Source of the DNA: Terebella lapidaria
Taxonomy: Eukaryota; Annelida; Polychaeta; Terebellida; Terebellidae
Direction: 5' to 3'
Assembly (NCBI GenBank): GCA_949152475.1
Contig: OX424561.1
Location: 22,934,481 to 22,998,480 of the forward strand
DNA: 64,000 bases
The first letter of the stretch is position 1. Each line of letters starts with the position of its first letter. This document shows positions 20,075-54,106 of the stretch, piece by piece. Below the pieces are notes generated by a model. The model was given only the letters and a program-made list of their open reading frames with translations, had not been told where the DNA came from and did not search any database. The position numbers and the translations under genes are program-made.

Positions 20075-20500
20075 AGCACCAAGGGTGCTGCAGCTTACCG
20101 GCAGATCATAAGAATTACATAGTGTATTGATTTTCCCAAAAACAAATTGTTACTCTTCAAACCTATTGTCAAAACATGCTCGTAAATGTTGCCAAACACA
20201 CATTTCCTGTATGGAATATAATACGAAATCAAGGTACATCAAGTTTCTTTCGTTAATGACATTATTCACAGACCGTCGATTTAAAGGCAACAAAACTTAT
20301 ACACATCACAAAGGTACTACATAGAGATTTTGAGAATTGTCTGAATAGTTTTTGAGACTTTTCTTTTGACAAAGTAAGGTCGTTTTGACCTTTCAAAGTC
20401 ATTCAAAATCAAATTCAAGGTCATCATTCAAACTGCAATATATGATTTCCCATTTGAATGTGCCAATACTACGCTGTATCTTGAAAAGTTCTAGGAGTTT
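20075..20500. repeat. Dispersed repeat family C, copy 1
   Basis: Starts 'agcaccaagggtgctgcagc' and runs through 'gtcaaaacatgctcgtaaat'. It matches 51590-52060 over its whole length with moderate divergence. Contains TTGACCTTTC and TTCAAGGTCATC. Confidence 0.7.
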
Positions 20501-20861
20501 ACCCCCGCAAAGCTCCCATTATGAAAGAAAAATTGGGTGAAATTTTCACCAAAATTTTCCCAAAAAAGTCCCAAAAATTTTTCAATGGCAAATAAAAAAA
20601 AATGTTTTTGCTGGAAATGGCTGAGAACGAATAGTGGCTCGATTTGGGACAAAAAATCAAAATGGCTGCCACAAGCAGACCGGCGATTCAAGGACAATGA
20701 AACTTGCCATTGATGTACATGAGGGAGATGTCTTGAAACAAAAATCGCAAACAGATCAGACAGTTTTCGAGAAAAAGGCCATCAAAGTCCAAAATTAGCC
20801 ACTTTTCATAAAAAAAATGGCCGCCAAATCGGCAAAAACGATTGAATAATAATAAAAAAAA

Positions 20862-22318: not shown

Positions 22319-23186
22319 AACGAAAACAAAACGTCTCAGGGTATTAACCCAAGGAATGTTTTAGTAAATTTTCAGAAAAAAACTTCATCAAGGCCCCAAA
22401 AAGTTATTTGCCGGACGGACGACGGACGAACGTACCAATTTTTTTAGGTTAAAGGGCTTTCACCACGTTAAATTTCCTCTCTCGTGTGAGCCCCTTATCC
22501 CCAAATTAATCCCCAAAATACACGTCTGCTCATAAAAAGTGGATTGGGCTATTTTCAGCTTTTCAAGCCCCTAAACCAGAGAGTGTAGACGGACGACGGA
22601 CGAAAAACCACGCCAATAGCTTATCGGGCCATGGGTTGGTAAGCTAAAAATACTGCACCGGACCAGCGGTCCATCCAACCAAGGTCTTTCCTTCATCCGG
22701 GAGTCTTCAGTTTCTCATTCACAATGTGGCCACTCGACCCACAGCGCTGTCTGTCGTCATAATAGTGCAGTAGTAATTTTGGCACATGAAATGCTTCATT
22801 CGTTATGCTTTGTTCTTCGTGCGATGTGCTTTATTCTAAATGAAATGTGCTAAGTTTCATATGCATTATGCCAGATGCGATTTGTTTTTGATAGTTTGCA
22901 TGGACAAAGGTGTTAGAATTTGACATGATGAATTAAGAATTGAGAAAGTACCAGTGAGAACTTGGAAGTAAGCAGAAAGGAGATGGAAGTTAGAACTATG
23001 CAGTAAGAATATGTAAATTCGACACAGAAAGTTTAGAAACAGCAATGTGGAATAAAGAATTTCGCGGTTGAAACAATCATCCACAACAAGAAAATCTACA
23101 ATGCATGTCAATGAATATTGACCCTAAAAACGCTCCATAATTTTCACCCCAATTGTCAAGTTACACATTTCAGATGTTATTCAGAT

Positions 23187-23192
23187 TTTAAT
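23187..23192 (-). promoter_or_regulatory. Candidate polyadenylation signal ATTAAA
   Basis: On the minus strand ATTAAA lies about 160 nt beyond the stop codon of the MIB-death gene and before the inverted-repeat element that begins at 23139. A common variant signal; placement is plausible but untested. Confidence 0.4.
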
Positions 23193-23350
23193 ACAGGCAG
23201 TCAAATGGAGAAACTGAAGAAGGTTGGGAAAACATATCAAGAATAGCCCCCGAGGGTATGTTTTAGTTTGTACACCCGCTGCAGAAACAAACCGATGTTT
23301 TTGTCTACGTATTTCTGTTTTCACGCGGTCCATAAATATATTCAAATTCT

Positions 23351-23667
23351 CTAACTCTCTATGTATTTGTGCTGATTTTGTTGAAATACATCGAATCGAA
23401 TCAAAGATACTGCACCTTCTGCAAGCCTCACGAACTGGAGCCTCCGGAGAGCCTTTACAAGAGTTTGTCGCGTGGCGTCCTGACGACTGTTCTGATTTCG
23501 CCACGTGTAGAGCATTTGGTAGATGCATTCCTCTATGTTGTTCTTGTTGCTATGTTCAAGCTGTCCAAGCACTGGCTCTTCCAGATCCAAATACCGACCC
23601 AACATCTTCCAGCTTCTCATCACCTCATGCGACTTGGCCAATTTGATCATCATCTCCGATGTCACTT
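23351..23667 (-). CDS. MIB-death gene exon 14: death domain and stop
   Basis: Acceptor CCCCTTCTACAG, two leading bases, 104 codons and TAG at 23353-23351. The domain reads LAKSHEVMRSWKMLGRYLDL, then QLEHSN, YQMLYTWRNQN and TRQTLVKALRR, the spacing and conserved Trp residues (W571, W607) of six-helix death domains as in ankyrin, UNC5 and NF-kB p105. The whole domain is in one exon entered in phase 1. The tail FDVFQQNQHKYIES has no recognised motif. Confidence 0.85.
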
Positions 23668-26600
23668 CTGTAGAAGGGGACACGTCAACAGATATGTTAA
23701 TGAAAAACCGACCTAGTTCTTTTGTTTGGGGTCAACGCTCTAAGGCTAACTTTTTGTAAGCTGATGCCGACACATGGTGAGTAAAATAAATTTTCCGTTA
23801 AATACTAACCATATTACCTTAGAATGTGGATTCGATGCAGTGTACGAGATACCAATGAACAAGTCCGTATACATTATACCTTCTCCGGGAAGTATAAACA
23901 ATCATTGAGGATGTCTTGTGGTTGTATTGATGCAAGAGGAGCGATTCTCCGAAGCGTTGTATGTGAAGTTTCCATGAACCCGTCTTGGATATGCCACCCA
24001 AAGACTAGCCATTACTGGAAGCAAATCGAGACTTCTGAATTTGACCAGGCAGCCCTAGAGCGTAGACCATGTCTTTAGAGCGCTGACACATCACAAGCCA
24101 TACAATAATGAATTATTAGAGCCCGAATTAGATGACCTTGTGCCTTTATATTGCTCACGAAGGAAGTTTGAAGTATTTGAGATCCCCAGTTCAAACGGTG
24201 TTGCTGTACATGAACCAGAAGTATAAAACACACTGTGACCAATGTTTGGACACTACATATTTGTGGACCACCTGTGTGCGAGGGCCTATTTCTGCACAGA
24301 TCATATCCCTACGGATAATTGGACAGCATGAGCGTGTACATTGGTATCTCGGACTGCATCGAATCCCCATGGTAAGGTAGTATTGTCAGTATTTAACAGA
24401 AGCATTATTTTACTCACCCTGTGTCGGTATCAGCTTCCAAAAAGTTAGCCTTACAGCGTTGACATTAACATGACCTGACCCATAAACAAAAAAACTAGAT
24501 CGGTCAACGCTCTATGCCATTTGGAAGGGTGTGAAGTAACCCAATCGGCAATCAAACATAATACGGTTCCGGTCAAACCATCTGTTACGGGGATGTTCTG
24601 GTAAGGTATAAATTGTCGCCATAGTAGTAGTAGTGGTAGTGGTGTCGAAAAGTCGAATCATACATATATTATACAGTTATGGGTAAATGGTGAGCTCAGT
24701 CAGTTATGAGTAGTTGGCTCGTACACCATGAGATTTGAAGGGGTGAAGTCAGCTCATAGTGATGTGCTGGCTGAACCTCACTCGTCCATCATGAGATTTG
24801 AAGGGGTGCAGTCAGGCAGTCAGCTCATAGTGATGTGCTGGCTGAACCCCTTCAAATCTCATGGTGGGCGAACCAACTACTCATACCTATTATATGTAAA
24901 GTTTGACGTCGTCCGCTATCCCGGATCCTCGCGGATAATCCGCTCACCGTGGGTCACGGCGGACGCACGCCCGCTATCCAAAATCCTCGCGGATAGTCCG
25001 CTCACCGAGGGAGCAGAAACGTTAACCAGGTAGCAGCCCGCCTAGCAAGCCCAGAAGTACGGACACCACTCAGACACTGGATCATCACCGTGGTGTTACC
25101 TGTGGCCGGCTCGCCGACGGCACTGCCGCAGAGATAGAACCCTGGACAGCCCGACGGTCTGCCAGAGCCTGTGTCACACCATCCCAGGGCGAGTGACCGG
25201 TGATCACAGGTACGAGCCACAAATCATCACGGTCCCCCTCCTGCACCCCCCCCCCCCCCCATGGGAATTGTCCCCAGGGCCCTCGCGGGCCTTAGCCGGT
25301 GAGTAGGGACGTAGAACTCATGGCCGAGCCCTCCGTCGTCCTCTCGCCTTGCCAGCTCTTGAGACAACTCCACTGAACAAGACGGCTTCAGAGTATTCAT
25401 AACCCCTAAAGCACGAGACACGAGGGATGACGTATGACCATTGTTACAGCACAATGGAGCGAGAGGGGTTGAGGGCGTTGCTATGCAGCGCACGTGCTTC
25501 GAATACGAAGCGGCCAAACCAAGAGTAGTGCTTACAAAGAATCTCCTGCCGTGATCTTTGGGCGAAATCGCCACATTTACTTTATTATTTATATTATATC
25601 TTGAGCATTGACAATTAAGTAGTTGTTGTTGTCGTCAGACATTCCACACGTGAGAAAACGTTATTTATTTACAATAACAAAACCACTTGGGACCCACTAT
25701 TGCTTTTTATTGGGCAGGAAGTGGCGCCAGAGACCATTATCACTTGGCAGAGTGGTCGCGGCATGTGTTCTTGTCCAATCAACAATTAGAACTCGGTACG
25801 CTAACTATCCAAAGTATAATATATATACATGTCGTATCACATTACCTTCGGCTTTCGACAGACGGCATATCGTGGGACTAACGAGCCAAGAATATTCTGC
25901 CAGGTTCACCCTCAAGCCTCCGTCATCGCGCACCTCTGTCACAACTGCTGAGGCAGTCATTGCCTGGAGGTATATAAATTATACTATACTGGTATCCTGA
26001 TCTACACAATCTACAGAACATGCACATCTGACATTGAGATTCACATAATTTATTTTGTCAGCACACAGCTCCGTGCTACCTTTCATTATCCGTTGAAAGA
26101 GTTAATCTCCAACATGACAGTAAATACATGTAATTCAAAGCATTTCGACAATATCCTGAAAGAATGCTTGGCACTGATATTTGTCTGGTATTTTAGGTTT
26201 CTTGGTTTATTACATCAGACTGATTGCATATAATGTGTTAGTTATAAATGTACTGCACACCTTTTTCATAGCATCGTCCCACTTTCCGTAGCTTTTCTGT
26301 TCCCGCTTCACAAAATCTAGATCTTTGTCCAACTTCACGTGATCTCCGACTGAAAACTTACCCCGAGTCATCCCAACTTTTCGGACTGCTTTCAGGAAGA
26401 GAACAACAGCAAATACGTATGTAGCAGGGTTCTTCAGTGTGATTTCTTTGTTTAATGTATTTATTTGACACATCAACAGGGGATACTCCTAATATTATTT
26501 TTGTCCCATGCCTGTATGAATGTCTCACGTACGTCTTTCATTGGTCAGACGCTTCTGTATAGATGTGTATTCACATTTATTTCCAACATATATAATATGT

Positions 26601-29600
26601 AAAGCCGTGTTGTGTTAAGACTTTGTTTAGTGTCCACCAGATTTCAAAATTTTAAAAATGCATAACTCGCCTACTTTCCATTCAATTGCTTTGAAATTAT
26701 AGACAGACGTGAACATTGACAACTTCTATCGACTGCATAAGTTTGACCCGGATCTGATCCGGATTACGGATTTGACATCCATTTTAATTTAACATCGAAC
26801 ACTCCATTCAACCAATACGTTTTGTTGTATTTCGGTCTGATATACATAGTTCACGTTGATTTTTTTGCAGAAAGTGGCGGATCGTCATTGTATATGAAGT
26901 AGAAAATTTTAATGTGGATCTGATCCGGATTACGGATTTGACAGCTGTTTGAATTTAACATTGAAAATTCAGTCATCGCATACAGTTTTTGCGCAAGCGT
27001 CCTGAATCTCTCTTCGATGGATAGGTATGTTCACTGAAACAGTACCGCCCATTTGTGAAAGAAAATGACAAAACTAGGTGAGTGTGTTTTCCAGCACGCG
27101 GGAAAGATCGAGTTTGAACTGGCGGAAGAATACCAGAGAGCACGAGACCGAAGGTCGAGTGCTTTCTGGTGTTCTTCCGTTCAAACTCAACCCCTGTAAA
27201 TTAAAGTAAAATTGAACCAAAGATTGAAAGAACTTCTTACAATCTTTGATTGTACTCAAGGACCCTGAGTAGAAGACCCGTAAACATGTGCGTTGCTAGG
27301 AAACAATATAAACAATGCAGATCACCGGGTCGTCAAATACTTTGTATTATGACGTCACAGTGGTTGTACGTTTTCTAAATGGTTACATGTTACTAAGGCT
27401 GAATCGCGTGATGTTTCATTGTGACGTCATAGAACACTCGCGCTTTAATTGTTCTTTAAAGAAAAACGCATTCAGACAAGTGCATGTGAAACGTGAAGCA
27501 AAAATGTGAAGAAAAAAATAGTGCAAACATGATGTTTCCGGCAAAGGTTATCACACTGTCGGAAATCACTGTGTGTTCTCACTGTTTGTAGTTTAAGATA
27601 AATTCATAGCATGTGATAATTTGGAATATTGATAACGTCACCAAAAATTCTTGAAAACTCGAAAAATCCCTATCTCTAACATTGAGTGAATAGTCAAACA
27701 TTCATAACTCCCTTAGTTTTCATTATAAATTCATTGAATTGCTTTGAAATTTCAGACAGACGTGTACAATGACAACACTAGGTGAGTGTGTTTTCCAGCA
27801 CGCGGGGAAGATCGAGTTTGAACTGGCGGAAGAATACAAGAGAGCACGAGACCGAAGGTCCAGTGCTTTCTGATGTTCTTCCACCAGTTCAAACGAGATC
27901 TTTCCCATGTGCTGGAAAACACACGAAACAGGTTTAGTTTCTATCACATGCTATGAATTTGTGATTCTGAAATATTTGAAAACTCAACCCCTTGCAAGAT
28001 CTTCTTTAATACAATCTTTGATTGTAATCAAGACTCGTTCCACTCATGAGTGAACGAGAGAGTGTACTGTGTATTTCTAAAAGGCCCGTGAACATGTGCG
28101 TTGCTAGGAAACAGTATAAACAATGCAGATCACCGGGTAGTCAAAAACTTTGTATTATGATGTCACAGTGGCTGTACGTTTTCTGCATGGTTATATGTTA
28201 CTAAGGCTGAATCGCGTGATGTTTCATTGTTACGTCATAGAACACTCGTGCTTTCATTGTACTTTCAAATCAAAACGCATTCAGACAAGTGCATGTGAAT
28301 TTGTGTAATGTGAAGCAAAAATTAAAGAAAAAATAGTGCAAACATGATGTTTCCGGCAAAGGTTATCACACTGTCGGAAATCACCGTGTGTTCCACCACT
28401 GTTTGTAGTTTAGTATAAATTCATAGCATGTGATAAAATGATTGACCACGTAAGTTCTATTGACCAAATGAGTTTGATCTGAATCCGATCCAGATTACGA
28501 ATTTGACAGCTATTTGAATTTTTAAATTGAAAACTCCATTAATACTTTATGTTATACGTTGGTCAATTATGCATAGTGCACTTTGACTTTTTGCACAAAC
28601 TGGCAGATAATACCGGTGACGGTTTTCGCTTAAACTGACAATAAATGATCCGGAATTCCGGATCCGATCCAGATTACGGATTGTGAATTGACCTTTTGTA
28701 AATATATCGAGTAGTAGCTCGTTTGAAAGGTCTTCGATAGTGCTTTCCAAATATGTCCCTTTTTTCGAAATCTGACGTCATTATGACGTAAAACGTCCCT
28801 TTTGTCATACATTCAGGGTTCATAACATTTATAAATACACTAGTCTACCAAGTATTTTGTTACCACTCTGCCATCCATATTTCTAGCTTGAACTCAAACA
28901 TGGAGTATGTTTTCTGCAGTACGAGCGCTCCAGACCACGTGATTTTGGTGATCCTAATTTTGAAAAAGATTTTGCCAAGTTTGGCCTTCTGGCCTATGGT
29001 ATCTCGTTTATGTATTGATCAGTTCTCGGCCCGTTGGATACGACGCTGATTCTCAGGCATAAGCCTAAGTATGGTCTCAGAACTCATTTTTAACGCACGA
29101 AAGAGGGCATCGCACTGATCATTGTGGTTTTTACGGCATGTCATTATCATAATTAGTTCCAAAGTTATGAGGATTTTTATCACAATTTTTAACCCAAAAT
29201 TGACACCTAATTAAGTATTATGATGAGCATTCATGACGTCACAACGGGAACACATTTTAATTAGCTACATGAAAGTCTTGAAATCAAATATTTGATTGAA
29301 GATATCAGTTTAATTCAATATTTTCAATGTTTAATATGAAATATAAGCAGTATTTAGTTATCTCAATTGGTTACCATGGTAACCATTCTTTTGATAAAGC
29401 CTATAGCAACCATGGTTGCTAGGGGCCTGTTTGTCAGTAATATCCTATTTTGTTGCTCAAGAAAGTGAAAATATCAATTATCTTCATTTATTTATCTCAT
29501 ACAAAGCTTTCAAAACCCAATTTTGCTTTTAGGCTGTGAGTTACGCCCTTAGCAACCATGGTTGCTAGGGGCAGTATCAAAGGAATGGTTGCTATGCTGG

Positions 29601-32600
29601 TGGACCACTCTACATAATCATGGTATAAATTTATGTAGCTACATCTTCCAATACTATACATTTGTGATACCATGCAAATCAACATCAGAATGACACTCTG
29701 AGTCACTTATTAAAATCAATATCCCGGTGTGACGTCATGAATACTAATTATAATAGCTGATGAGGCAAAATATTACAGTGAAAATATGACCCAAATTGCC
29801 CACAAAAAGTTTAATATTTCGATAACTAAACGAGATAAATCGATTTTGTAAAAACCATTGTGTTTATTTCAATATGTTCTTCAATATAAAATCTGAACAT
29901 CTATTTTGACTTTACTTAGGCTTTAACCATTCTCATGTACTGCACTATAAACAGCTGATAAATGGGCTTGGCGGCAAGTTCGAACCGCATTTGCCCGAGA
30001 CAATGAGAAAGTGTGATCGACATATGTACGTGTAGATTATTGAATCAATACAATCTTGAATCCGTTGTTGTTCATCAGGTATGTGTGCATTTCATATTTA
30101 ATTCATAAGCCTATATCGTTCGGTTAAATAGCAGGTATTGTGAAATGTAAAGTAATTTCATGTTATAAACATGATAGCAACATTTCAGTTTGTATATTTT
30201 AACATTGTCGCAGATATTACTCTCAGTTTCCAATATTTAGAAAAAAAATTGTATTGAGGATCAAAATCATTCCAGCCAGCATATTTGTTTCATTGAGTTC
30301 AAAATAAATGTTTATTTATTCTGAATATGAATGAAGTAGGGTTTTTTCATTGGTCGCCGCATCAGCGGCGGCCTATATCAAATACAAAGTTACTTTAACT
30401 TCCGGTGCCGCTTAGCACAGTGCACCTTTTTCCACCTGCCGCTCAGCGCACGAACAGATATCTAGCACAAACATCATCCAATTTTATTAGTTTATTTGAC
30501 CGACGATCTCACAGCAAGAATTTTTTGGCCAACGCATTTGTTTCATGCGGCGACCACTTTTGCTACTCTGGATCCCTGACGTTTACTTGTCATAATATAC
30601 GGATAAGAATTGGAATCATTTCCATATCCGGGGGAGGATATGGTAGCAATTTTCTTTTCTTTTTTGGGAGAGGGCGGGGGGTGAGTAACGTGGTGTAAGA
30701 TACATTAAGCTGTCGTGGTGCTGATGACGTGCTCGAGCTCTAACACGGTGGGTAGACAGACAGTAGTCTTGCATGATTTCCGAACTCTAAATGATGCACT
30801 AAGAAAGAGTACCAACCATATCACGAAATATTTAAGTAACTCATGTTGATAGGGAAGAATTTTCGGTAAAATTAAACAACGTTTTGTGTTTGAAATGTCT
30901 CACACTGCAATGAAGTTTGATCAAAAGAAATAGCCGCCGAGTGAAATAATGGGTTGTATTTCTGTCGTCGTCGTTTATTTGCAAGGTACATGACAATCTA
31001 CACAGCTATACAGACATGTTCTATTGTAATTCCAACTCTTGCAGCAAAATATTATCTATAATCATCACATATAACATTTTAAATTATTTATGCATATTTA
31101 CACACTCTAACATGATTGGCAAAAATTTAGCATCTCACTCTTGCATGATTCGTCATGATCGAACCTTTGCATACCGAGACAGAGATCTCTGTGATGGAGG
31201 CACGTGTTAATAACTATAAATGGTGCATCCTAAGTTATGCTTGAATGAATCGTTACACCAGATAACTATCCGATAATTCATTCATTTAGATAGCAGATGG
31301 TTTCTCTGTCACTGTAACCTAAAATCTCACCCGAGAAGAGGCCGTCGGCTCTGCATCGAAATTTGTCAGTAGCCCATACTAAATAAGATGTGTACTTTCC
31401 GAAAAGAGAAAACAAAATTGGGGTCACCTGCGGATGCTCCCTCGTGGACGATATTTATGGATATATACTAGATCATATCAAATTATGGCTTTGCAACCCG
31501 AGTTACCAAATTTATTACCGGAAACCCCCGTAAACAAGCCCGTCCGTTAATTTGCCCATGAGTGTATTTACTGTTTTTTTTTTTTCGAAAATATATATTT
31601 GTTATTTTTAGCTTACCGGTCCGTATAGGAAATGATATATGCAAAATATTCTGATGACCTTGACTTTGACCTTTGACCTCATTTCCAAGGTCAGAGCACA
31701 AAAATTGCTAGTATCTTGTTTATTATTTACTTTACAGCTTAGGAATCAATTGTGGACATATAGGATATATGCTGAATATTATCGTGACCTTGAGTATGAC
31801 CTTTGACCTCATTTTCAAGGTCAGATCACAAAATGGCTAATATCTCGCTTATCATCTACTTTACAGCTTGGGAAATAATTATGAACATGTACATGTATGG
31901 AATGATCTTGCGACGAATGAATGAATATTCTTGCGACCTCGAATTTGATCTTTGACCATACTTTCAAGGTCCCTGAACAAATTGGCTGAGATCTGCAACA
32001 TATATTGTCCGGTACCCTTCCTTAGCCCTTGGAATAAATTTTATAAACATATATCACGATGAAATAACTACCAGTATTCAAATCTGGAAGTGAACATAAT
32101 ACATTAATTAGGTCCTACTAAGATTTGGGTGACGGCAACACCTGTCAAACTCAGTTTGACCATTCTCATGTACTGCACTATAAACAGCTGATAAATGGGC
32201 TTGGCGGCAAGTTCGAACCGCATTTGCCCGAGACAATGAGAAAGTGTGATCGACATATGTACGTGTAGATTATTGAATCAATACAATCTTGAATCCGTTG
32301 TTGTTCATCAGGTATGTGTGCATTTCATATTTAATTCATAAGCCTATATCGTTCGGTTAAATAGCAGGTATTGTGAAATGTAAAGTAATTTCATGTTATA
32401 AACATGATAGCAACATTTCAGTTTGTATATTTTAACATTGTCGCAGATATTACTCTCAGTTTCCAATATTTAGAAAAAAAATTGTATTGAGGATCAAAAT
32501 CATTCCAGCCAGCATATTTGTTTCATTGAGTTCAAAATAAATGTTTATTTATTCTGAATATGAATGAAGTAGGGTTTTTTCATTGGTCGCCGCATCAGCG

Positions 32601-35600: not shown

Positions 35601-38600
35601 GGCGACAAGTCCGAAAATAACGTCCGTTTCGCTCTACAACGCACCGTTTCTGAGATATCGACGAAAACGAAAAATGCCGACACGGCGAAAAAAATTTAGG
35701 TGAAAGTCAAAGTTCATCCATAATAACGTCTGTTTCGCTCTACGACGCACCGTTTCCGAGATATCGACGAAAACGAAAAATGCTGACTCGGCAGAAAAAT
35801 TCAAGGTCAAGGTCGAAGGTCATCCTCAATATCCCTTAGACTTGTTTGTCTAGGGCGACGAGTCCGAAAATAACGTCCGTTTCGCTCTACGATGCACCAT
35901 TTCTGAGATATCGACGAAGACGAAAAATGCCGACACGGCGATAAAATTTTAGGTGAAAGTCAAAGTTCATCCTTAATAACGTCCGTTTCGCTCTACGACG
36001 CACCGTTTTCGAGATTTCGAAGAGAACGAAAATGCTGACTCGGCAGAAAAATTCAAGGTCAAGGTCGAAGGTCATCCTCAATATCCCTTAGACTTGTTTG
36101 TCTAGGGTGACGAGTCCGAAAATAAAAACGTCCGTTTCGCTCTACGAAGCACCGTTTCTGAGATATCGCCGAAACCGAAAAATGCCGACACAGCGAAAAA
36201 ATTTTAGGTGAAAGTCAAAGTTCATCCATATTACCCCTTAGACATGTTTGTCTAGTGCCGCGAGGCCGAAAATAACGTCCGTTTCGCTCTACGACGCACC
36301 GTTTCCGAGAAATCGACAAAAACGAAAAATGCCGACTCGTCAAAAAAATTCAAGGTTAAGGTCGAAGGTCATCCTTAATACCCCTTAGACATGTTTGTCT
36401 AGAGCGACGAGTCCGAAAATAACGTCCGTTTCGCTCTACGACGCACCGTTTCCAAGATATGCAGGAAATCTCAAGGATGACTGGGCGAAAACTCTCCCGA
36501 CCTCTAGGTCAAAGGAGATCCCAAAATCTTCCATGCAAAGTTCTGCAGCCATTGCCTACATACTTTTTGAGTTATCGTGAGGAAACAAAGTCCCAAAAAC
36601 AACATTGATTTCATCCTCACGGACCTCGGATCCGGCTGAAAAACAATAGGGTTCTTCCACATAATATGTCTGACCAATGCTGAAAATTTGGCGAAGATAC
36701 ATCGAGGCAAACTAAAGTTATCGGTCGGAAACCAAAACGCAGAAAAAAAAGGGAAAAAAAAATTCTGCTATAACCATAAAGACTTTTCTTCTGAAATGCC
36801 TTAATGAGCCACATTATGTTTCAGACATGGGATCTTGTAATGAGAAGTTCATTCGTCTGATGCATCTCCATCAGTGGCTCTAGAGCCTAACACTACCGAG
36901 TATGAATTGGGAACCCAATGATGCAATGTAACAAATGATGTCAGTGGCGTGCCTGATATTTTTTCCAGAGGAGCCCAAACTTTCGCAATTTCCGATTATG
37001 GATATATTGTGATAGGCAATGTTGTGATACATCATGGTGTGATGTATATTATTTGCTCGGGATTGTTTTTGCAACAGCGAACAATAGTACAATAGCGAAC
37101 ATAATTTTCTATCACTCATCAATTCACCAAAAAGCAAAGGAGCAGCCTATACGGCGTGGGGTCTGGGGCCCGGTGAAGGGCCACAGAAGCCAGAGTTTTT
37201 TTCATGTTCTGTGGTTGAGTTTGAGCTCTTCTCTGGCTCTAAATGGGTACTTTTAATTCCCCACAAACATGCAATTATATTGTCATGTTGATATGTAAAT
37301 ATATGTATCTCGAAACTATACATCATGTCACTTTACATATTTCATTTCACATTTAACATAATAATGATGATGACACTCAATTGTCACCACACATGTGCGA
37401 TTTGAACGTGTACGGGCACAGTGAGCAACTCAATAATAATGAAAGCAGAGTCATAATTGCTATATACTAGTATTCAATACACACGACGTTTATGCCAGCA
37501 GACACACTTCAATCGACACTAATATAAGAGAGATTCATTCCAACATCTGTGAAATGTTTATTACGATCAATGACTTACGCATGTTATGTAATGCTGTACT
37601 TAACTGATTTTTTAATCAGAGATTTTTTTTGAAAAAAATATTGAGGGAGCTCCCTCCCTTCTCCCTAAATCTAATCCCCCCGGGTACGACACCCTTGAAC
37701 TTCGGCAAAAGTATGTTGACTCTAGTTACAATCGATGCACATCGTCTTTGCACAACTTTCGTTTCGGAATCCACGAATTGTTGTCAATGCATCATGAAGC
37801 ATGCAGCAAAGAGCCTGAAGCTGTATGTTTCCAGTAAATATTCTCGTCGAGACTTCCATTCATGAATTTAGACGATTTTGATATACAGAGATATGATGAT
37901 ATTTATAATTCTGCGGCCTCGTGGAATATTGCCGAAGTCACTTTGATCAAAATTTCTCCTAATTTTAAATACCTCATTTTCTCACGTTTTTACAATTATC
38001 ATTCACCTGCCGATTTCCTGAATTTCCGCAGAAATGATGCCGGGCTGCCAACCCCCCCCCCCCCCCCGCCCCTCCGTCAGGTACACCACTGAATGATGTG
38101 GTAACTCGTGTGATCAATTGGATGGGGATGGCAAATGATTTATAAAGCTGTGTGCCTCGGTGATAATTATCATACAGAACTTCCGGACAAATGGTGCTAC
38201 CCTGATCATCTGTGCTGCGTCAAAACCCACTCATACCGTCGAAAGAGTAGTTGCACATTACCTTGTTTAGGTGCTTTAAATTTCGACGCTTCACTGCATA
38301 TTTCTGTGTTCAATATGTACGTCTTGTCCCCAAATGACACCACCAGGTCGTTTGACACTGTGACATCACGAAGAATGCCGACAACACCTGTACCTGAAAG
38401 CTTGAAATGCCACACGGTTTTTAAGTAAAAAAAAAACAGGCATATAGAATACAAGACGGACATTTCGAACGCAGTCATTCATCCCGCGAGAAGTTCGACC
38501 AATGTATAATCACTTACCTCCTCTAAATCGTCGTCCCACCCACCATGACCTTGTTGCTTGACTTTGACCTCCTTAAATTCCTTGGTAATCACGACTTTAT

Positions 38601-41600
38601 CGCCTGTTTTAAGTTTCGGTTTTGGCTCAGGAGTGGCTCGTGCTTGGTCTGGTAATAATAACCAAACACCAATCACCAGTCATGCATTCCTGTCCGTATA
38701 ACAGTAGTTCTGCCAAGCACACACAAATATACATCCTCACATACCTTGTGCCGTTTTGTCAACATTCTGTTTGCTAATCAACTGTGGGTTCAGGACCCAT
38801 TCGTCAGAGCCAAAATGCACATACACGTCTCCATCGCTGTCGATCTTCTTAACTATGCCAGCTTTACCAAGGCTCTGCGAATACATTGGTGAACTCCAAA
38901 AGCAAATGGTATGCTGTTCTTAAAATAAATGTTCCTATTGGAGCATCACGATAAATAGCAGAATTCAGAATGTTATGATATGGCTATATATTTCTATTAT
39001 CATGGTCTTAATTTGTTATAAGTTTGTCTGATATCAGTCAAGCAACTATGATGGGAGGGGTTATTGTTGTTGATATTAGCGGACGGCAGTTTACAACTGG
39101 CAAACATCGCGCATAATAATAATAATAATAACGTAAATACAATATAATGACAATCGATATGCACTGGAAACACGTAATACGTGGGGGCTCATCTGGGGAA
39201 AACAAGAAAAATTTTGTCGTTCATGACTCCATATATGGGGTTTTCAATACATGATAATACCATTTGATTCAACAAAGTTACCTGCCATTTGTTAATGTTT
39301 GGTTGATACTGTTATAAATGGTTTGGATGGTTGTGCTGCTTACATCTATATAGACGATATAATTGTGATCATTGAAAATTATTCATGTCATGAGGTTATT
39401 CATACCTATGAGGTATTCAGATATATGCTACTTTGGGGCGTTTGGTAAGGCTTTGTTTTCTGTTGCTGTTCCCCTTGAGGTACCTTGATCATTGCTGGAT
39501 TGAAGCCTCCATGTCCATCCTGCAGATGATTGACTCTGCCAAGGTCATCATGCAGTTTGACGACGTCCCCAACTGAAAACTCGCTCATCGTGTCTTGTTT
39601 CTTCTCAATTTCTCCTTTGAAAGAAGCATCAAAAGCGTCAGATTTATAACTTTTAAGGTGAAGCTTTCTATGCATGACTACTCCCTGGATATGATAACCT
39701 AACAGTTAGGGATTTTCATGATTGTTCAACTACCACATTATATTTCCCTACACCGGTATATATATTATGTATTATATAAATACAACCCTGTATGTATATT
39801 GGTACAGCGTATTATTCCCGGAGAGAGAGATTACTGCCCGAGGCGTTAGCCGAGGGTGGTAATGTCTCACGAGGGGAATAATCTGCTGCGACGAGTCCAA
39901 AAATAACGTCCGTTTCGCTCTACGACGCACCGTTTCCGAGATATCGACGAAAACGAAAAATGCCGACTCGGCAAAAAAATTTCAGGTCAAAGTTCATCCG
40001 TAATACCCTTTAGGAATGTTTATCTAGGTCGACGAGTCTGGAAATAACGTCCGTTTCACTCTACGACGTACCGTTTCCGAGATATGCAGGATGCCTCAAG
40101 GATGACTCAACAAAAAATTATTTCGACCTCTAGGTCAAAGGTCGTTTGACGTATCGATCCCAAAATCGATAGGATTCTTCCCTGGTGGTATATAAACCTC
40201 CATGCAAAGTTCTGCAACTATTGCCTGAATTTTTTTTCCGAGTTATCTTCCGGAAACCAAGTCTCAAAATCAGCCTTGATTTCATCCTCACGGACCTCGG
40301 AGCCGGATCAGAAAAACAAAAAACCCTTAGACATGTTTGTCTAGGGCGACGAGTCCGAAAATAACGTCCGTTTCGCTCTACGACGCACATTTTCTGAGAT
40401 ATGCAGGAAGCCTCAAGGACGAATCAGCCAAAAATTATTTTGACCTCTAGGTCAAAGGTCGTTCGACGGATCGATCCCAAAATCAATAGGGTTCTTCCCT
40501 GGTGGCATATGAACCTCCATGCAGAGTTCTGCAACTATTGCGTGAATATTTTTCGAGTTATCGTCCGAAAACCAAGTCTCAAAATTAGCCTTGATTTCAT
40601 CCTCACGGACCTCATGGACCTCGGAACCGGCTCAAAAAGAATAGGGTTCTTCCACATATCATTTCTGACCAGTGGTGAAATTCTGACAATGATCCATCAA
40701 GGCAATCTAAAGTTATCGTCCGGAAACCAAAACGGCCGAAGAAGAAGAAAAAATTCTGCTAAAACCATAAAGGCATTTCTGCCGAAATGCCTTAATAATA
40801 CACAAGGACGATGGTCTTCGGGCACTTTTTATGACACCCGCGTCCGTGTGCATTATCTGACTTAGTACAGGGGTTCCTATTTGCAGGAACAGTAATCTGG
40901 TGGTAACTCTGTTCAAAAGTAACCTGTCATCAACAAAGGAAACGGCCCCAACCATGCACTAAATATTGTTATATCTATGGGCCGCTCGGCAATAATACAA
41001 TAATGCGAATAAGTAATGTGTAATAGATACTGTTAGTTTGAATAAGTAATTACCACGGGTGGCTTCCGCTCCCAGCATTTTTGCGAAGCTTTCAGACAAG
41101 TTGTATATCAAAGATCTCAGCAAAACCTGATCCAGAGCTGGTGATAGAAAAACAAATGGAAAAAAAATCATGACAATATTCCAAAGAGATTCCCCATTTA
41201 CATTATGCATAGTATGCGATTCTTGGATCAGTGTATTCTGGTCTAATTATAATACATAAATCTAACTCACATGCATCATCATCTGATTCATCATCATCAG
41301 TAGCAGCAGCGGCTGCTACAAGTTTCTGTCGTGGACAATATTCAGAGACAAACAAACAACTTCACCGTCTGAACCAATTCAAATACCCCACATGAAAACG
41401 ATTTTCCTATCACAAAGGACATTCGTACTACGACACAATACATTTTGTGCCGATATTCTGTTGCACCGAGTCAGAAGTGTATGTGTGCGTACGAAGAATA
41501 CATCAACTGATGTGTTAAAAAGTATATGACTTGCAAAACTCAACGTATCAGGGCGGGATAAGGACCAGTCCCGGAAAAAAAACTTTGAAGTGGAGAATGG

Positions 41601-44600
41601 GTGATCATATAAATCTTTATACATGTATGTATCTAATAAGCCGTTGGTTTATTATACACTAAAAAAGAAAGAGGAATCTGAAGAAAGAGGAATAAACCGC
41701 AGGTAAAATTCAGAAATAAATCATTGCAAGTGTGACAGGAGAAATTTCGGGCCTACTCTAAGCATCACCAAGAGAATAACACTCCATCGGGAATCTTTCC
41801 AAACAGTAGGAGTACCCAGTACCCAGATCACTTCACCTGCAGAAGAGGTTGAAATGCTAACATATATCACAAGAAAAGCAATAAAACATATCACCTCGCT
41901 GGATGAGCGCAAATGATGATGGTCTTCTAGAATTAGGATAATATGATAGAATGCATGGTATATCAACACCATCGAAATACAGAAATAGGGAAAACATTAT
42001 CATTGGATATCGCTCCCTGATCATGGTATTTCCAAAACTTTAAAAAGCTGAAGGCAGAGCCTAAAAAAAAACATTCAACAAAAAATATTGTCTCAGCACA
42101 GTATGGCAGATAAGATTGCATCGTCGGTCCCTACGTTGTAATGGACGGTAGGACATTGAAAGGTCAAATCATCGACAAATGGGAACTAATTATTTCCAAC
42201 CAAGAGGGTCAAATGACATGAAAATTAGTTCCACAAACATCTCAATGGTGTGGAACAAAAATTCGACAATGTGCAATAGCAAGTAGATTCGAATAGGAGG
42301 AAAGCGTAAGTTGTTATAAGCATGTCTATTACTAAAAAATTTTTTCCTCGTAGGTGACTTGAATGTAATACTTGGACCACGGTGAGTCTCATTTTCAAAC
42401 TGTGTTCTTATTCATATAACAGTACCTTGTACACGTGTATTCCCCGAAGGAAACATAATACCACTGTCAAATATATGCAAGGACCTAAATGGTAAAGAAA
42501 AACCCAATGTTCATAGGAACATCAAACGAAAATGGATGTCTGAATTGGAAGCGGTTGATACATACATGACCAGGCTAGTAATAAACACGAAGACTCTTCA
42601 TTCTTCATTCACCTTCATTCACCTGAACCGCATTAACTTCCATATTCTAAACTGTAGATTACTTGGCCAATAAACAACGTACTGACTACAACAGTAATAT
42701 TATCTGCAACTGCACCAAAGCATCATGTGGCCATAAATACATTCAACTTGAGGATCTACACAATTACCTCAGTTTTCTTTGCAATATCTTCGCTGTCACC
42801 TGGAACGACAAAAGGGAAAGATATAGATGAAATATGCCATTAACTTAGCGTTCCACAGAGAGCTAGCAATCTTCAATGGGCCACGTACTGAGCTGTGGGA
42901 GGTGGTCTCTGTAGTAGAACCAACCAGCTGCAGCAGTCTTGAACTCAACATCGACAAAGCCGCCAAGACCCCGTCTATAGATGTATCCGGTATTTGTGTC
43001 ATGACTCCACTTGACAACTAATGCTGCTTTCTCCATGCCACCCTCTGTCACGTACCCGACACTCGTCACTGTTCCCTCTGTCCCAGCGCCACCTGCGTGA
43101 CAGAACCAGTTTTCCATGAGGCAGTGCAAATGTATGGAAAAGCGTACTACTCAACTTATGCACGAGACTCTATACTGACCATCCTGGTTTGCTTTGCTCC
43201 AGTCTGCCCCTCGCACAACAGTGGCACCCGTGTACAGACCACGCGAATGTATCTTGACAGCATTCATGCGTTTGCCAACATTCCGCCTAACAAAATAACT
43301 AATACCACTACAATATCACAATAACTAATATCACTGGGAAAGCAATTGAAACAATTCTGTATGAGATAACTGTCAATTGTGGGTTTGCTCACCCCTGGGT
43401 GTTCGGAATACTGATACATCTGAACTTGTGATTCCTGTTGTGTCTATCTTCACCATAGCACTCAGTACAGAGGTCATAGTTCCGGCAATCCAGACAATTC
43501 CAGCGCAGACCTTTTACGTTCTTTTCTTTGCAGTGGTCACACACAACATACGGATGGAAGACTCCTGAGTAAACATTGGAAATAGCATCGCTTGGCTATG
43601 AAGTAAACATTGGATACAGCATCGCTTGGCTATGAAATAGTGGGTACAATCAATACAAGGCCTATACGCGATGATACAAGCATGGGCAAATGCTATATCC
43701 AAGACTAGAGTTCGTTTTCAAGTGAAGGGTTTTTTTACGATTGATGAATACTGACGTTTTGTCTTTACTTGGTATGATTGGATCAACCAATCGAGCGATT
43801 TGCTGTCAGTGTCTAATCGTTGCCTCATGGCCCGCTTCAGCTGCTGGAGTAGGCACTGCTGAAGCTTTTGATCACATAGGAAACTACGGTGGCTGATTCT
43901 TGCCATAATGCGTTTTCCCTGAACAGTTTTCGTCGCGAATTTAATTCTGACGACTGAAACTATTTAAATCGCGACCGAAATCATTAAATCCGCGACCATA
44001 ACGTTTTCGCTGCAGCGAAAACTTTCTCGCCGCGAATTAAATACTTTTAGGCGAGAATGGCCATACTTGTTCGAACGCTTTTCTTTCATCACCTCAAAAA
44101 GAACAAATTGTTTATTATTGCAATTATCGCCGCGGCGAATATTCACAGTTAAGTTCAATTATCGCCGCGGCTTTAAGTATTCTCGCTGCAGCAGAAATGT
44201 CGCGGCCGCGGCAACAACGATTTTCGCTGCAGCGAAAATGTTTTGGTCGCGGCAACAATGGTTTTCGCTGCGACGAGAATGTTTTAGTTGCGACAACAAC
44301 TATTTTCGCTGCGACAAGAATGTTTTGGTCGCGGCGAGAATATTTCCGCTGCAGCGAAAACGTTTCGGTCGCGATTTTAATCATTTCCGTCGTCAGAATT
44401 AAAGTCGCGACGAAAACTCTTCAGGACAAACACATTATGGCATGAATCAGCCACTGTAGGAAACGGTCTTTAACTGGTAAGTACTGGTACATTATTGTTT
44501 GTATGAACGTGGTCAGCTGGATTGTATCCGGTAAATGCATGCATAGACATGGATATATGTATATGTGTGTACCTTTTTATTCCTCATGAGTGCGTTTAAT

Positions 44601-53600: not shown

Positions 53601-54106
53601 CCACGTGAGAACGCAGTAGCCTGAACTGTTTCCACGTGCGAACGTGACAGTTCACACGTAGAAAGATTCAAAGCTACCACGTCCACACGTGGAAGCATTT
53701 GAGGCTACCACTCCCAAATCTTCGCACGTGCGAACGTGATAGTGGTGAATGCTTCCACGTTCGAACGTGCTAGCTTTTTTCTGGAAAAGATATATCTATA
53801 GAACATTTTTACTTGCATGTCGTCTATGGGCTTCCGTATATGGACCTAATTATGTTAGACAGAATACCGGTTACCACACTGACCTGCAGGCCCATTGTCA
53901 AGGACGAGAAGATCCTTAGCGTCCTGTGCGCCGATCCTGTAATCGTTCCTCTTTCCGTTGTCCCAGAGGACGTTGATCCAGCCCGTGCTATTGGCCTGCC
54001 TATTGGTAGTGGTGCCACAGTAGCCCTCCCCGCCGTCCTGGTGCTCCCCCCACTTCCAATCCAGACTCCTCACCACGCGCAGTCCGGGCATCGTCCTAAC
54101 TGGCAT
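23351..54106 (-). CDS. Mind-bomb-like protein with C-terminal death domain (14 exons)
   Basis: Spliced CDS of 1971 nt in 14 exons, 656 residues. Domains: MIB/HERC2 (about 7-72), ZZ zinc finger (83-120), MIB/HERC2 (about 152-232), acidic linker (about 236-300), three SH3_15 mind-bomb repeats (about 304-371, 390-459, 479-546), death domain (about 557-640). MIB/HERC2 and SH3 repeats in Mind bomb bind the tails of Notch ligands; death domains assemble signalling complexes by homotypic contact. Mind bomb proteins have two SH3 repeats, then ankyrin repeats and RING fingers. Here the ankyrin and RING parts are absent, so catalytic ubiquitin transfer is unlikely. All introns are GT-AG and phases agree throughout. 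Two introns exceed 10 kb and are full of transposons. The start is one of two in-frame ATGs (54106 or 54091). An upstream 5' exon is possible because an AG acceptor sits at 54121-54122. Probably a cytosolic adaptor; function is inference. Confidence 0.85.
23708..24503. mobile_element. Inverted-repeat element in the last intron
   Basis: Arms of about 390 bp. Left: GGTCAACGCTCTAAGGCTAA (about 23732) and 'gatgccgacacatggtgagt'. Right: complements at 24400-24503 (CTCACCCTGTGTCGGTATCA, AAAAAGTTAGCCTTAC). The interior also pairs (GAGATACCAATG near 23849 with CATTGGTATCTC near 24341). The left end lies about 40 bp from the acceptor of the death-domain exon. Confidence 0.75.
24704..24886. mobile_element. 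Hairpin MITE-like repeat
   Basis: Left arm TTATGAGTAGTTGGCTCG and CCATGAGATTTGAAGGGGT; right arm with ACCCCTTCAAATCTCATGG and CGAACCAACTACTCATA. GTCAGCTCATAGTGATGTGC is directly repeated inside. Lies in the last intron of the MIB-death gene. Confidence 0.75.
24900..25575. other. GC-rich island, probable old repeat remnant
   Basis: A 0.65-kb island of clearly higher GC than its flanks, in the last intron. It starts with two imperfect copies of a unit containing CCGCTATCC, ATCCTCGCGGATA and TCCGCTCACCG, and holds a run of about 16 C at 25244-25260. Minus-strand ORFs of 72 and 115 codons cross it but show no recognised motif. It may be retroelement untranslated sequence; nothing more can be supported. 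Confidence 0.4.
25846..25963 (-). CDS. MIB-death gene exon 13: second half of SH3 repeat 3
   Basis: Acceptor CTCCAG and donor GAAG/GTAATG. Phase 0 in, phase 1 out. The peptide has ASAVVTEVRDDGGLRVNLAE then WLVSP, aligning with the second halves of repeats 1 and 2 (GKAGIVKKIDSDGDVYVHF... and TGVVGILRDV...). Confidence 0.85.
26261..26388 (-). CDS. MIB-death gene exon 12: first half of SH3 repeat 3
   Basis: Acceptor TCCTGAAAG and donor AAAAAG/GTGTGC. Phase 1 in, phase 0 out. FSVGDHVKLDKDLDFVKREQ followed by GKWDDAMKK matches the mind-bomb SH3 signature (GDxV..., then GxW/GxF...MxK). This third repeat exceeds the two of Mind bomb proteins and is separated from repeat 2 by an 11.9-kb intron. Confidence 0.88.
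26747..28683. repeat. Dispersed GATCTGATCCGGATTACGGA-type repeats and duplicated block
   Basis: GATCTGATCCGGATTACGGA followed by TTTGACA occurs at about 26750 and 26917, with diverged forms at about 28476 and 28656. Between them a block (27062-27560) is repeated at 27776-28400. Both copies start GGTGAGTGTGTTTTCCAGCA and share GAACTGGCGGAAGAATAC. The second copy also carries an inverted arm (CATGTGCTGGAAAACACAC). Together they look like overlapping copies of non-autonomous elements in the large intron of the MIB-death gene. Confidence 0.65.
28690..29360. other. Intronic AT-rich DNA, nothing recognised
   Basis: No exon with splice sites was found, and no repeats of note. Confidence 0.5.
29369..29384. 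promoter_or_regulatory. Perfect palindrome matching an RFX X-box
   Basis: GGTTACCATGGTAACC is a perfect 16-bp palindrome and contains GTTACCATGGTAAC, matching the RFX X-box consensus. Two perfect palindromes TAGCAACCATGGTTGCTA follow at 29404-29421 and 29550-29567. Likely parts of a repeat; binding is untested. Confidence 0.5.
29926..32158. repeat. 2.23-kb tandem duplication, copy 1
   Basis: The unit runs from ACCATTCTCATGTACTGCAC to ACACCTGTCAAACTCAGTTT. It contains two 134-bp-type monomers (31615-32010) with TTGACCTTTGACCTC, and the CCGGTACCCTTCCTTAGCCC terminus of the Helentron-like family. Copy 2 follows directly. Confidence 0.93.
32159..34390. repeat. 2.23-kb tandem duplication, copy 2
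   Basis: Near identical to copy 1. Differences seen are a few substitutions and one-base indels (for example an extra T near 32693, AAGAAAG versus AAGAATG near 33038, a shorter T-run near 33811). The high identity implies a very recent event, or an assembly duplication of two haplotypes. It lies in the 11.9-kb intron of the MIB-death gene. Confidence 0.93.
34391..35410. other. Intronic DNA, nothing recognised
   Basis: AT-rich; several ORFs under 115 codons without splice signals or motifs. Confidence 0.5.
35414..36460. repeat. Degenerate tandem array, family B ('ACATGTTTGTCTAG' repeats)
   Basis: Roughly seven copies of an irregular 105-150 bp unit. It contains TTAGACATGTTTGTCTAGGG, ACGAGTCCGAAAATAACGTC, TTTCGCTCTACGACGCACCG, GAGATATCGACGAAAACGAA and ATTCAAGGTCAAGGTC. 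The ORFs across it are short and differ between copies. The same family recurs at 39895-40420 and 60340-60420. Confidence 0.9.
36460..36812. repeat. Family B right-hand block
   Basis: Shared with 40080-40800 and 60410-60750: 'tcaaggatgactgggcgaaa', a 'gacctctaggtcaaaggt' part, 'caatagggttcttccacata', and an end with a hairpin-like AAGACTTTTCTTCTGAAATGCCTT. At 40770-40793 that hairpin is perfect (AAGGCATTTC / GAAATGCCTT). Confidence 0.75.
36815..38260. other. Intronic DNA, nothing recognised
   Basis: Within the 11.9-kb intron between exons 11 and 12. It holds a C-run (38051-38067). No exon seen. Confidence 0.5.
38262..38400 (-). CDS. MIB-death gene exon 11: second half of SH3 repeat 2
   Basis: Acceptor CATTTCAAG after a T-rich tract, donor CAAG/GTAATG. 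Phase 0 in, phase 1 out. LSGTGVVGILRDVTVSNDLV then VSFGDKTYILNTEI aligns with the other second-half exons. A nearer CTTTCAG is also an acceptor-like site but would break the phase. Confidence 0.82.
38518..38648 (-). CDS. MIB-death gene exon 10: first half of SH3 repeat 2
   Basis: Acceptor TTACCAG, donor GAGGAG/GTAAGT (near consensus). Phase 1 in, phase 0 out, 131 nt like exon 8. The peptide carries a Pro/Lys linker (ATPEPKPKLK), GDKVVITKEF and QQGHGGWDDDLEE. Confidence 0.9.
38745..38874 (-). CDS. MIB-death gene exon 9: second half of SH3 repeat 1
   Basis: Acceptor TATTCGCAG, donor CAAG/GTATGT. Phase 0 in, phase 1 out. GKAGIVKKIDSDGDVYVHFG followed by EWVLNPQLI is a textbook SH3_15 second half with the W-x-x-NP motif. 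Confidence 0.9.
39484..39614 (-). CDS. MIB-death gene exon 8: first half of SH3 repeat 1
   Basis: Acceptor TCTTTCAAAG, donor ATCAAG/GTACCT. Phase 1 in, phase 0 out. MSEFSVGDVVKLHDDLGRVN followed by QDGHGGFNPAMIK; the HGG[W/F]...M pattern is shared with exon 10. Confidence 0.9.
39808..39892. repeat. Imperfect inverted repeat
   Basis: GTATTATTCCC at the left pairs with GGGGAATAAT at the right. Internally TTACTGCCCGAGGCG pairs imperfectly with CCGAGGGTGGTAA around a TTAG loop. Small hairpin of unknown role in the exon 7-8 intron. Confidence 0.5.
39895..40800. repeat. Family B repeat, two further copies
   Basis: Starts 'acgagtccaaaaataacgtc' and includes two 'tttcgctctacgacgcac' units. It ends at the perfect hairpin 40770-40793. 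A 154-codon plus-strand ORF crosses it but is not conserved in the other copies. In the intron between exons 7 and 8. Confidence 0.8.
41054..41137 (-). CDS. MIB-death gene exon 7: linker before the SH3 repeats
   Basis: Acceptor TCTATCACCAG, donor CGTG/GTAATT. Phase 1 in, phase 1 out. LDQVLLRSLIYNLSESFAKM followed by LGAEATR looks helical and amphipathic. No named domain recognised. Confidence 0.75.
41271..41325 (-). CDS. MIB-death gene exon 6: acidic linker
   Basis: Acceptor CCACGACAG, donor GCAT/GTGAGT. Phase 0 in, phase 1 out. It encodes KLVAAAAATDDDESDDDA, an Ala stretch then an Asp/Glu/Ser run with possible casein-kinase-2 sites. The split codon completes Ser with exon 7. Confidence 0.75.
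41980..42760. other. Intronic DNA, nothing recognised
   Basis: Part of the exon 5-6 intron; no repeat or exon seen. Confidence 0.5.
42768..42799 (-). CDS. MIB-death gene exon 5: 32-nt microexon
   Basis: Acceptor TCGTTCCAG and donor ACTGAG/GTAATT bound 32 nt. Phase 1 in, phase 0 out, encoding DSEDIAKKTE after a shared Ser codon. It is required by phase: exon 4 leaves in phase 1 and exon 6 can be read only in phase 0. Confidence 0.7.
42889..43092 (-). CDS. MIB-death gene exon 4: main part of MIB/HERC2 domain 2
   Basis: Acceptor CACGCAG, donor CTCA/GTACGT. Phase 1 in and out. GAGTEGTVTSVGYVTEGG, VVKWSHDTNTGYIYRRG and WFYYRDHLPQL follow the MIB/HERC2 pattern (G-x-V-x-x-V, V-x-W, Y-R-x-G, DHLP). 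Confidence 0.88.
43180..43286 (-). CDS. MIB-death gene exon 3: start of MIB/HERC2 domain 2
   Basis: Acceptor TTTGTTAG, donor GATG/GTCAGT. Phase 2 in, phase 1 out. GLYTGATVVRGADW then QDG is the N-terminal signature of the domain. The tryptophan-rich WKWG of domain 1 is replaced by WSKAN here. Confidence 0.87.
43393..43564 (-). CDS. MIB-death gene exon 2: ZZ zinc finger
   Basis: Acceptor TTTACTCAG, donor CAGGG/GTGAGC. Phase 1 in, phase 2 out. All eight zinc ligands of a ZZ finger are present: C83-x2-C86, C98-x2-C101, C107-x2-C110, H116-x3-H120, with the YDLCTECY core. The order MIB/HERC2 then ZZ then MIB/HERC2 is that of Mind bomb. Confidence 0.92.
43887..44456. mobile_element. Tc1/mariner-like foldback MITE
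   Basis: Left end CGGTGGCTGATTCTTGCCAT, right end its complement (ATGGCATGAATCAGCCACTG), TA on both sides. The interior consists of about 20-21 bp units with palindromic cores (TTTTCGCTGCAGCGAAAA, GTCGCGGCCGCGGC) and folds back over most of its 570 bp. It lies in intron 1, about 320 bp from the ZZ exon. No ORF. Confidence 0.75.
44662..45927. mobile_element. Transib-like inverted-repeat element, copy 2
   Basis: Same termini as 14666-15938 (CACGGTGGCTAGGCGTTACG and complement). The flanks carry TAAGT on both sides, a 5-bp target-site duplication different from that of copy 1. The interior matches copy 1 in the opposite orientation (for example GAAAATGGACACACAGTTCG versus its complement). No transposase. 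In intron 1 of the MIB-death gene. Confidence 0.78.
47910..48290 (+). pseudogene. Decayed DIRS-type tyrosine recombinase fragment
   Basis: CLEDGLKVSLHVIPSFLVKL, then LCPV, KRLLFISHQS, RDIRSTSYSPWIQK and SVHDVRAMATS align segment by segment with the recombinase at 62235-62936 (LSVIPSFLAK, LCPVRAL, KRLLFISYL, SDIRPATISSWIKK, KAHDVRALAAS). The HxxR catalytic pair is still readable (48256-48267), but stops and a frame change near 48062-48120 break it. It lies inside the foldback element. Confidence 0.8.
48500..48837 (-). other. Open reading frame of unknown origin
   Basis: A 137-codon minus-strand ORF inside the foldback element, with segments such as RFELRCRLNLVQSPNG and SEYSFQ-like text near 48650. 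A GTTTCAG acceptor-like site precedes it. No family recognised. It could be a captured exon or chance. Confidence 0.2.
50086..51280. mobile_element. PIF/Harbinger-like MITE
   Basis: Ends GGGGCCGGTCATTATTTA and its complement, flanked by TAA on both sides, the target duplication typical of PIF/Harbinger. Just inside each end are GGGGGGGTCA[T/C]A repeats with 'acttttattttcga'. The interior is unrelated and has no transposase. In intron 1. Confidence 0.78.
51590..52060. repeat. Dispersed repeat family C, copy 2
   Basis: Matches 20075-20500 from 'agcaccaagggtgctgtagc' through 'aaggtcattgaaggtcgagc'. It is followed at 52120-52500 by sequence loosely related to family B (TTTGCTCTACGACGTACCG). Confidence 0.7.
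52520..53290. other. Intronic DNA, nothing recognised
   Basis: AT-rich part of intron 1 with no clear repeat or exon. Confidence 0.5.
53310..53775. repeat. 31-bp palindromic minisatellite (CACGTTCGAACGTG type)
   Basis: About 14 units of 30-31 bp, each with a core such as CACGTTCGCACGTG or CACGTTCGAACGTG and a spacer such as GAAACTTTGAAACCTAT. Orientation flips near 53520, so the array is itself an inverted repeat. It ends about 110 bp inside intron 1 from the exon 1 donor. Confidence 0.85.
53884..54106 (-). CDS. MIB-death gene exon 1: MIB/HERC2 domain 1 and start
   Basis: Donor CTGCAG/GTCAGT (near consensus), leaving phase 1. LRVVRSLDWKWGEHQDGGEG, then VLWDNGKRNDYRIG and KDLLVLDNGP are a canonical MIB/HERC2 domain. 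The start ATG at 54106 (MPVRTM...) places the domain 7-8 residues from the N-terminus. The second ATG is 54091. The reading frame stays open to 54120, where an AG acceptor-like site allows a further 5' exon. Confidence 0.88.

Follow-up and report, generated by a model that had tools for sequence, protein, structure and literature searches.

Gene model and domain content

The window, by which we mean the whole analysed stretch of 64,000 nucleotides from the polychaete Terebella lapidaria, carries on its minus strand, read from 54106 to 23351, 11 predicted exons that join into one open frame of 598 residues (Table 1). All 10 introns of the model are GT-AG, and at each of them the donor phase equals the phase of the next acceptor. 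A sequence-only reading of this DNA had proposed a single in-frame ORF over spliced exons, and we recovered both the ORF (598 codons without a stop) and its two ends, 54106 being the start codon and 23351 the stop. The exon count had to be revised, from 14 exons and 656 residues to 11 exons and 598 residues. Indeed, as far as exon 9 the model requires no additional exon, since exons 1 to 9 match those of a sister gene (gene A, below) in order. The donor of exon 1 (CAG/GTCAGT) is in phase 1. The weakest site of the model is the acceptor of exon 8 (AAG), which has no positive score and was picked for its phase. A reading on the plus strand was rejected: the two plus frames of 23001-38000 analyzed with Pfam were empty, and the domain exons found are those of the minus strand. 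A Pfam scan of two minus frames of 22001-34500, neither of which is the frame of exons 9 to 11, returned nothing.

Table 1. Predicted exons and associated features of the window gene (window coordinates)
Feature	Position	Strand	Content
Exon 1	53884..54106	-	Start codon and first MIB_HERC2, aa 1-74
Exon 2	43393..43564	-	ZZ zinc finger, aa 75-131
Exon 3	43180..43286	-	Second MIB_HERC2 begins, aa 132-167; 71% identity with sister gene A
Exon 4	42889..43092	-	Remainder of second MIB_HERC2, aa 168-235; 70% identity with sister gene A
Exon 5	39484..39614	-	SH3_15 repeat 1, first half
Exon 6	38745..38874	-	SH3_15 repeat 1, second half
Exon 7	38518..38648	-	SH3_15 repeat 2, first half
Exon 8	38262..38400	-	SH3_15 repeat 2, second half; 67% identity with sister gene A
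Exon 9	26261..26385	-	SH3_15 repeat 3, first half; 64% identity with sister gene A
Exon 10	25846..25963	-	SH3_15 repeat 3, second half; donor AAG/GTAATG, phase 1
Interspersed repeat with inverted-repeat arms	23707..24534		Within intron 10, beginning at the duplication edge
Exon 11	23351..23667	-	Death domain and stop codon, aa 494-598
Candidate polyadenylation signal ATTAAA	23187..23192	-	158 nt past the stop codon

Intron 8 contains a tandem direct repeat of about 2.2 kb (approximately 30399-32277 and 32573-34555), which was seen from its repeated open frames. Short satellite-like repeat arrays occur at both the C7 and the C11 loci (window approximately 35400-36800 and 56400-58140; L032 2390-4280 and 6830-8400).

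The domain order put forward from the sequence, MIB_HERC2-ZZ-MIB_HERC2-3 x SH3_15-Death, was found again when the spliced 598-residue model was analyzed by hmmscan against Pfam, and every domain called exceeds its curated cut-off. MIB_HERC2 was matched in two stretches (E 5.6e-29), ZZ at E 1.2e-9, SH3_15 in three stretches (E 2.8e-37) and Death (PF00531) at E 4.7e-10, with 39.9 bits against a cut-off of 22.6. Residues 8-314 align with the human MIB1 structure 4xi6 (307-residue alignment; E 7.2e-78 for the whole sequence), which supports the earlier claim that the binding half of Mind bomb is retained. Among the features that define the Mind bomb family, the N-terminal MIB-ZZ-MIB module and the SH3_15 (REP) repeats are both present in the model, while neither ankyrin repeats nor a C-terminal RING was found in the window. 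The predicted protein thus resembles the E3 ubiquitin ligases Mind bomb 1 and 2 in having a MIB-ZZ-MIB module followed by SH3_15 repeats, and differs from them in its Death domain and in being without detected ankyrin repeats or RING. Judged from the sequence, this combination of a Mind bomb N terminus and a Death domain very probably reflects a genuine gene model, its splicing being predicted.

Relatives in the same genome and the search for a RING exon

To place the window gene among its kin, we turned to the genome (761.6 Mb in 438 contigs), in which at least 14 MIB_HERC2 and at least 28 SH3_15 matches were found. Contig C11 harbors two sister genes, A (approximately C11:7723903-7741786) and B (approximately C11:7780992-7791220), each of which ends in a RING exon; that of gene A was also called by Pfam. 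Exons 1 to 9 of the window gene were matched exon by exon in gene A (53 to 76% identity), and exons 1 to 4 were matched in gene B (61 to 69%). Both sisters share with the window gene the exon order, 61 to 76% identity over exons 1 to 4 and a last intron of phase 1, the acceptor of their RING exon having the same phase as that of the Death exon. They differ from it in their terminal exon, which encodes a RING, and gene A also in having more SH3_15 repeats. In gene B, one SH3_15-like stretch contains an in-frame stop and the DWKW motif is lost, so that this gene may be decaying, though its RING exon stays open.

More distant relatives were also found. A third one with a RING match lies at C11:2.57 Mb (C11b), and the genes at C3:33.05 Mb and C1:26.58 Mb look like a MIB1-like and a MIB2-like gene, respectively. 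When compared with 120 listed homologues, these two genes gave their top scores with proteins of molluscs, annelids, ribbon worms and hemichordates, none of which was clearly ahead, a pattern that on its own points to a lophotrochozoan as the probable source. SH3_15 matches are present at C13:28.65-28.85 Mb, with no MIB_HERC2 on that contig among the matches listed.

Divergence was then calculated over exons 1 to 9, to which this test is confined. The window gene and sister A differ with a pN of 0.218 and a pS of 0.762, the latter saturated (419 codons, exons 1-9), and the window gene and sister B with a dN of 0.249 and a dS of 1.92 (221 codons, exons 1-4); for the two sisters, dN was 0.085 and dS 0.412 (218 codons). 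Without constraint since the split, the dN of the window gene would be far higher, which by these codon comparisons indicates that exons 1 to 9 are old and under long-term constraint.

Two profiles were used to search for RINGs. The first, built from 96 RINGs that included those of sisters A and B, detected the RINGs of both sisters and two in C1; up to an E value of 5, neither the window nor C7:22891001-22931000 gave a match, and C7:22931001-22934500 was likewise empty. The second, built from 94 homologue RINGs with both sisters left out, detected sister A (3.4e-16), sister B (1.6e-15), a pair of RINGs in C1 and another pair in C11b (7.5e-11 and 2.4e-5); the window and the C3 stretch gave no match. 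Overall, the search beyond exon 10 covered about 69 kb without finding a RING. When 120 homologues were run by tblastn, the window had no significant match to either their ankyrin or their RING part; matches to the ankyrin part numbered 0 in the window, against 369 in C1, 170 in C3, 6 in C11a and 2 in C11b.

The MIB1-like gene of C3 was also without a RING match. Its matches extend no further than homologue residue 798, ahead of the RING part, and the 18.8 kb past its last matched exon (C3:33035001-33053792) yielded neither a RING nor a late ankyrin match. Such exons can therefore lie far off or escape detection, and the absence of a RING at the window locus is not absolute: by sequence search, a RING exon may be distant or missed.

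The sequence-only reading had seen the catalytic half of Mind bomb as replaced by a death domain. This holds in so far as the window showed no significant match to RING or ankyrin and the Death domain is terminal. However, sisters A and B, with few ankyrin matches or none, retain their RING, so that a terminal exon, and not a whole half, appears to have been swapped. Relative to the nearest kin, the event is best described, from the sequences compared, as a replacement of the terminal RING exon by a Death exon.

A predicted protein of this composition could also be a RING-less decoy that mainly engages the partners of the RING-bearing MIB paralogues and so has a dominant-negative effect on them, with a Death domain that only aids oligomerization. 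The existence in the same genome of RING-bearing sisters with 61 to 76% identity in exons 1 to 4, together with the lack of a detected RING at the window locus, would fit such a role. The Death domain nevertheless scores well as a true member of its family, a pure decoy would not need it, and we consider this explanation unlikely.

The Death exon and its predicted attachment to the MIB exons

Taken alone, the Death open frame was matched by Pfam at E 3.8e-11 (43.4 bits against a cut-off of 22.6). In a search of PDB sequences, the closest death domains were those of TNFR1 (1.1e-5), FADD, THO complex subunit 1 and RIPK1. A single-sequence AlphaFold model of the domain consists of six helices, but its mean pLDDT is low (60.2); with this weak model, Foldseek placed TNFR1, FADD, the death-domain complex 2of5 and RIPK1 in the lead, none of them significantly (E >= 0.33). 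The death domains of TNFR1, FADD and RIPK1 are among the nearest solved sequences, and to our knowledge none of them is fused to a MIB module.

We next considered whether the Death exon belongs to the MIB exons at all. An alternative is that the two are separate neighbors, the Death exon being an orphan or part of another gene and the MIB exons ending elsewhere, as the C3 gene, whose RING exon went undetected over 18.8 kb, might suggest. Several observations argue against this. The acceptor at 23667, the sole positive-scoring acceptor of the Death open frame, is of phase 1, in phase with the donor of exon 10, and it opens the domain nearly at its first helix, which is predicted to begin at exon residue 3. 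The first methionine of the exon falls within that helix, making a stand-alone start unlikely. Downstream in the window, no RING or MIB-type exon was found, and on the minus strand of 23740-25845 and 20001-23350 Pfam detected no domain at an E value of 0.1 in any of the three frames.

The placement itself also bears on this question. With an E threshold of 0.01, at least 39 Death matches are present in the genome, two of which are the window Death exon and its duplicate (below). A Death match in the 2.2 kb after exon 10, on the same strand and in phase, has a chance expectation of about 1.9e-5, a value which presumes that Death matches are scattered independently, some of them being in fact clustered. 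Among the matches listed, the window gene is the only MIB_HERC2 place with a Death match within 1 Mb. By this sequence-based estimate, the placement of the Death exon after exon 10 exceeds chance.

A second copy of the Death exon is present on the same strand outside the window, 35 kb away (C7:22923072-22923284). It belongs to a direct duplication of C7:22896128-22923346 and C7:22931981-22958186, separated by a spacer of about 8.6 kb and covering window positions 1-23706. The duplicated blocks are mostly 97 to 99.8% identical (one block of 287 bases is 93.7% identical), are interrupted by insertions and reach 99.5% identity beside the Death exon. The duplication seems recent, and a false duplication in the assembly may be its source. 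One of the interruptions, at window 19091-23139, is missing from the second copy: an insertion of 4,049 bases that has inverted repeats at its ends and a target duplication of ATTTTC. It is probably a DNA transposon, located about 210 bases past the stop codon.

The second copy is the other observation in favor of separate neighbors, as no MIB exon was found in the 10-kb piece around it. On the other hand, no Pfam domain was found in the 7.6 kb upstream of it either. That the Death exon arose at the second copy as part of another gene was for this reason rejected as less likely, all the more since the same MIB exons precede both Death copies. With the window copy as the original one, the MIB exons adjoined the Death exon before the duplication as well as now; with the other copy as the original one, the Death exon, though reached across a longer intron, would again have been the first domain exon found past the MIB exons. 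As far as the sequence can tell, the link would be broken only by a move of the Death exon from elsewhere in the genome, of which no sign was seen. Taken together, we regard separate neighbors as improbable, more so than a decoy.

The right edge of the duplication, window 23706, lies about 40 bases before the Death acceptor, and the interspersed repeat of Table 1 begins there. A recent rearrangement may therefore have occurred near the junction of exon 10 and the Death exon. The locus could accordingly hold a young or decaying chimera whose fused product is non-functional, the 99.5% identical blocks ending, and the repeat beginning, so close to the acceptor. Yet exons 1 to 9 are old and constrained, 598 codons are joined without a stop, and a recent loss should have left a RING relic near exon 10, where none was seen. 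Of the alternatives considered, this is the one to which we give the least credence, and we hold it to be very unlikely. The 317 coding bases of the Death exon itself are the same in both copies; the 16 differences found in about 2,240 flanking bases would predict about 2.3 there, and as a signal of constraint this identity is weak (P about 0.1).

Homologues in other species and a possible role of the product

To determine whether the architecture occurs elsewhere, we searched protein databases and retrieved 202 relatives at E 0.001 or better. The sequence-only reading had pointed to related species as a place to look for the same domain order; no Death domain (PF00531) was present among the best 120 of these 202 homologues. 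Of 519 candidates compared with residues 405-598, no protein reached an E value of 0.01. No second species with the MIB...Death order was thus found in the sequences searched, and a limited literature search did not find a MIB-HERC2 or Mind bomb architecture with a death domain in print.

Other reduced architectures were found among the homologues. The MIB proteins of Biomphalaria and Bulinus (P0001 and P0004) are, like the window protein, invertebrate and without ankyrin repeats by Pfam, but they have two MIB-ZZ-MIB sets, one SH3_15 (by eye) and a RING end. Two assembled sequences (P0003 and P0005) likewise combine MIB-ZZ-MIB with SH3_15 and are without ankyrin repeats or RING by Pfam, but they harbor four SH3_15 repeats (by eye) and PF01957 and have no Death domain. 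A further case is LOC113214724 of Frankliniella occidentalis (P0002), in which MIB-ZZ-MIB is also joined to a signaling domain and not to a RING; instead of Death, it carries an SH2 domain (Pfam) followed by a kinase-like start (by eye). In this protein the MIB-ZZ-MIB module occurs twice (by eye) before the SH2 domain, and it represents another exchange of a MIB output domain. As far as sequences go, these cases suggest that the MIB module recombines among invertebrate proteins. Relative to the sequences and literature searched, the architecture described here is new; it is a variant of the Mind-bomb type and not a new kind of system.

A link between MIB modules and death-domain signaling is documented in mammals. 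In one study of human MIB2, the data agree with a place for this protein in the TNF receptor complex; RIPK1 binds to its MZM region, which proved both necessary and sufficient, and this binding is abolished by a ZZ cysteine mutation (PMC5912950). For cFLIP-L, a second report states that the N-terminal zinc finger of MIB2 suffices for binding, again with mammalian proteins (PMC7815719). The MIB2 MZM-RIPK1 and zinc finger-cFLIP-L interactions are the better-documented bridge to death-domain signaling.

We thus somewhat favor the view that the window gene is a Mind-bomb paralogue whose last exon changed from RING to Death, and whose product would be a non-catalytic adaptor at death-domain assemblies. 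This is plausible because the N-terminal module of human MIB2, which is of the same type, binds RIPK1, as that study reports (PMC5912950). In such a scheme, the Death domain would dock into a death-domain oligomer of the TNFR, FADD, RIPK or MyD88 type, and the MIB-ZZ-MIB part would bind a partner there, either recruiting it or competing with RING-bearing MIB proteins; with no ubiquitin-ligase domain found, the product would be non-catalytic. We infer the splicing of exon 10 to exon 11, the self-association of the Death domain and the pathway served. More tentatively, and with appreciably less confidence than in the adaptor role, one may picture a natural fusion of a MIB module, a type that in mammals recognizes RIPK1 and cFLIP, with a Death domain of the TNFR1 class, in which replacement of the RING exon at a phase-1 intron would have turned a ligase into a death-domain adaptor.

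If transcribed as modeled, the gene would encode a Mind-bomb-type protein minus its enzyme and plus a signaling-assembly domain. Such fusions point to partners that work together, and the present case agrees with the binding of RIPK1 and cFLIP-L by MIB2 that was reported with mammalian proteins. Should the more tentative fusion scenario above hold, it would indicate that Mind bomb and death-domain signaling were already linked before the vertebrates arose. The occurrence of RING-bearing and Death-bearing sisters in one genome would, furthermore, provide a simple system for studying the role of MIB-ZZ-MIB without ubiquitin transfer.
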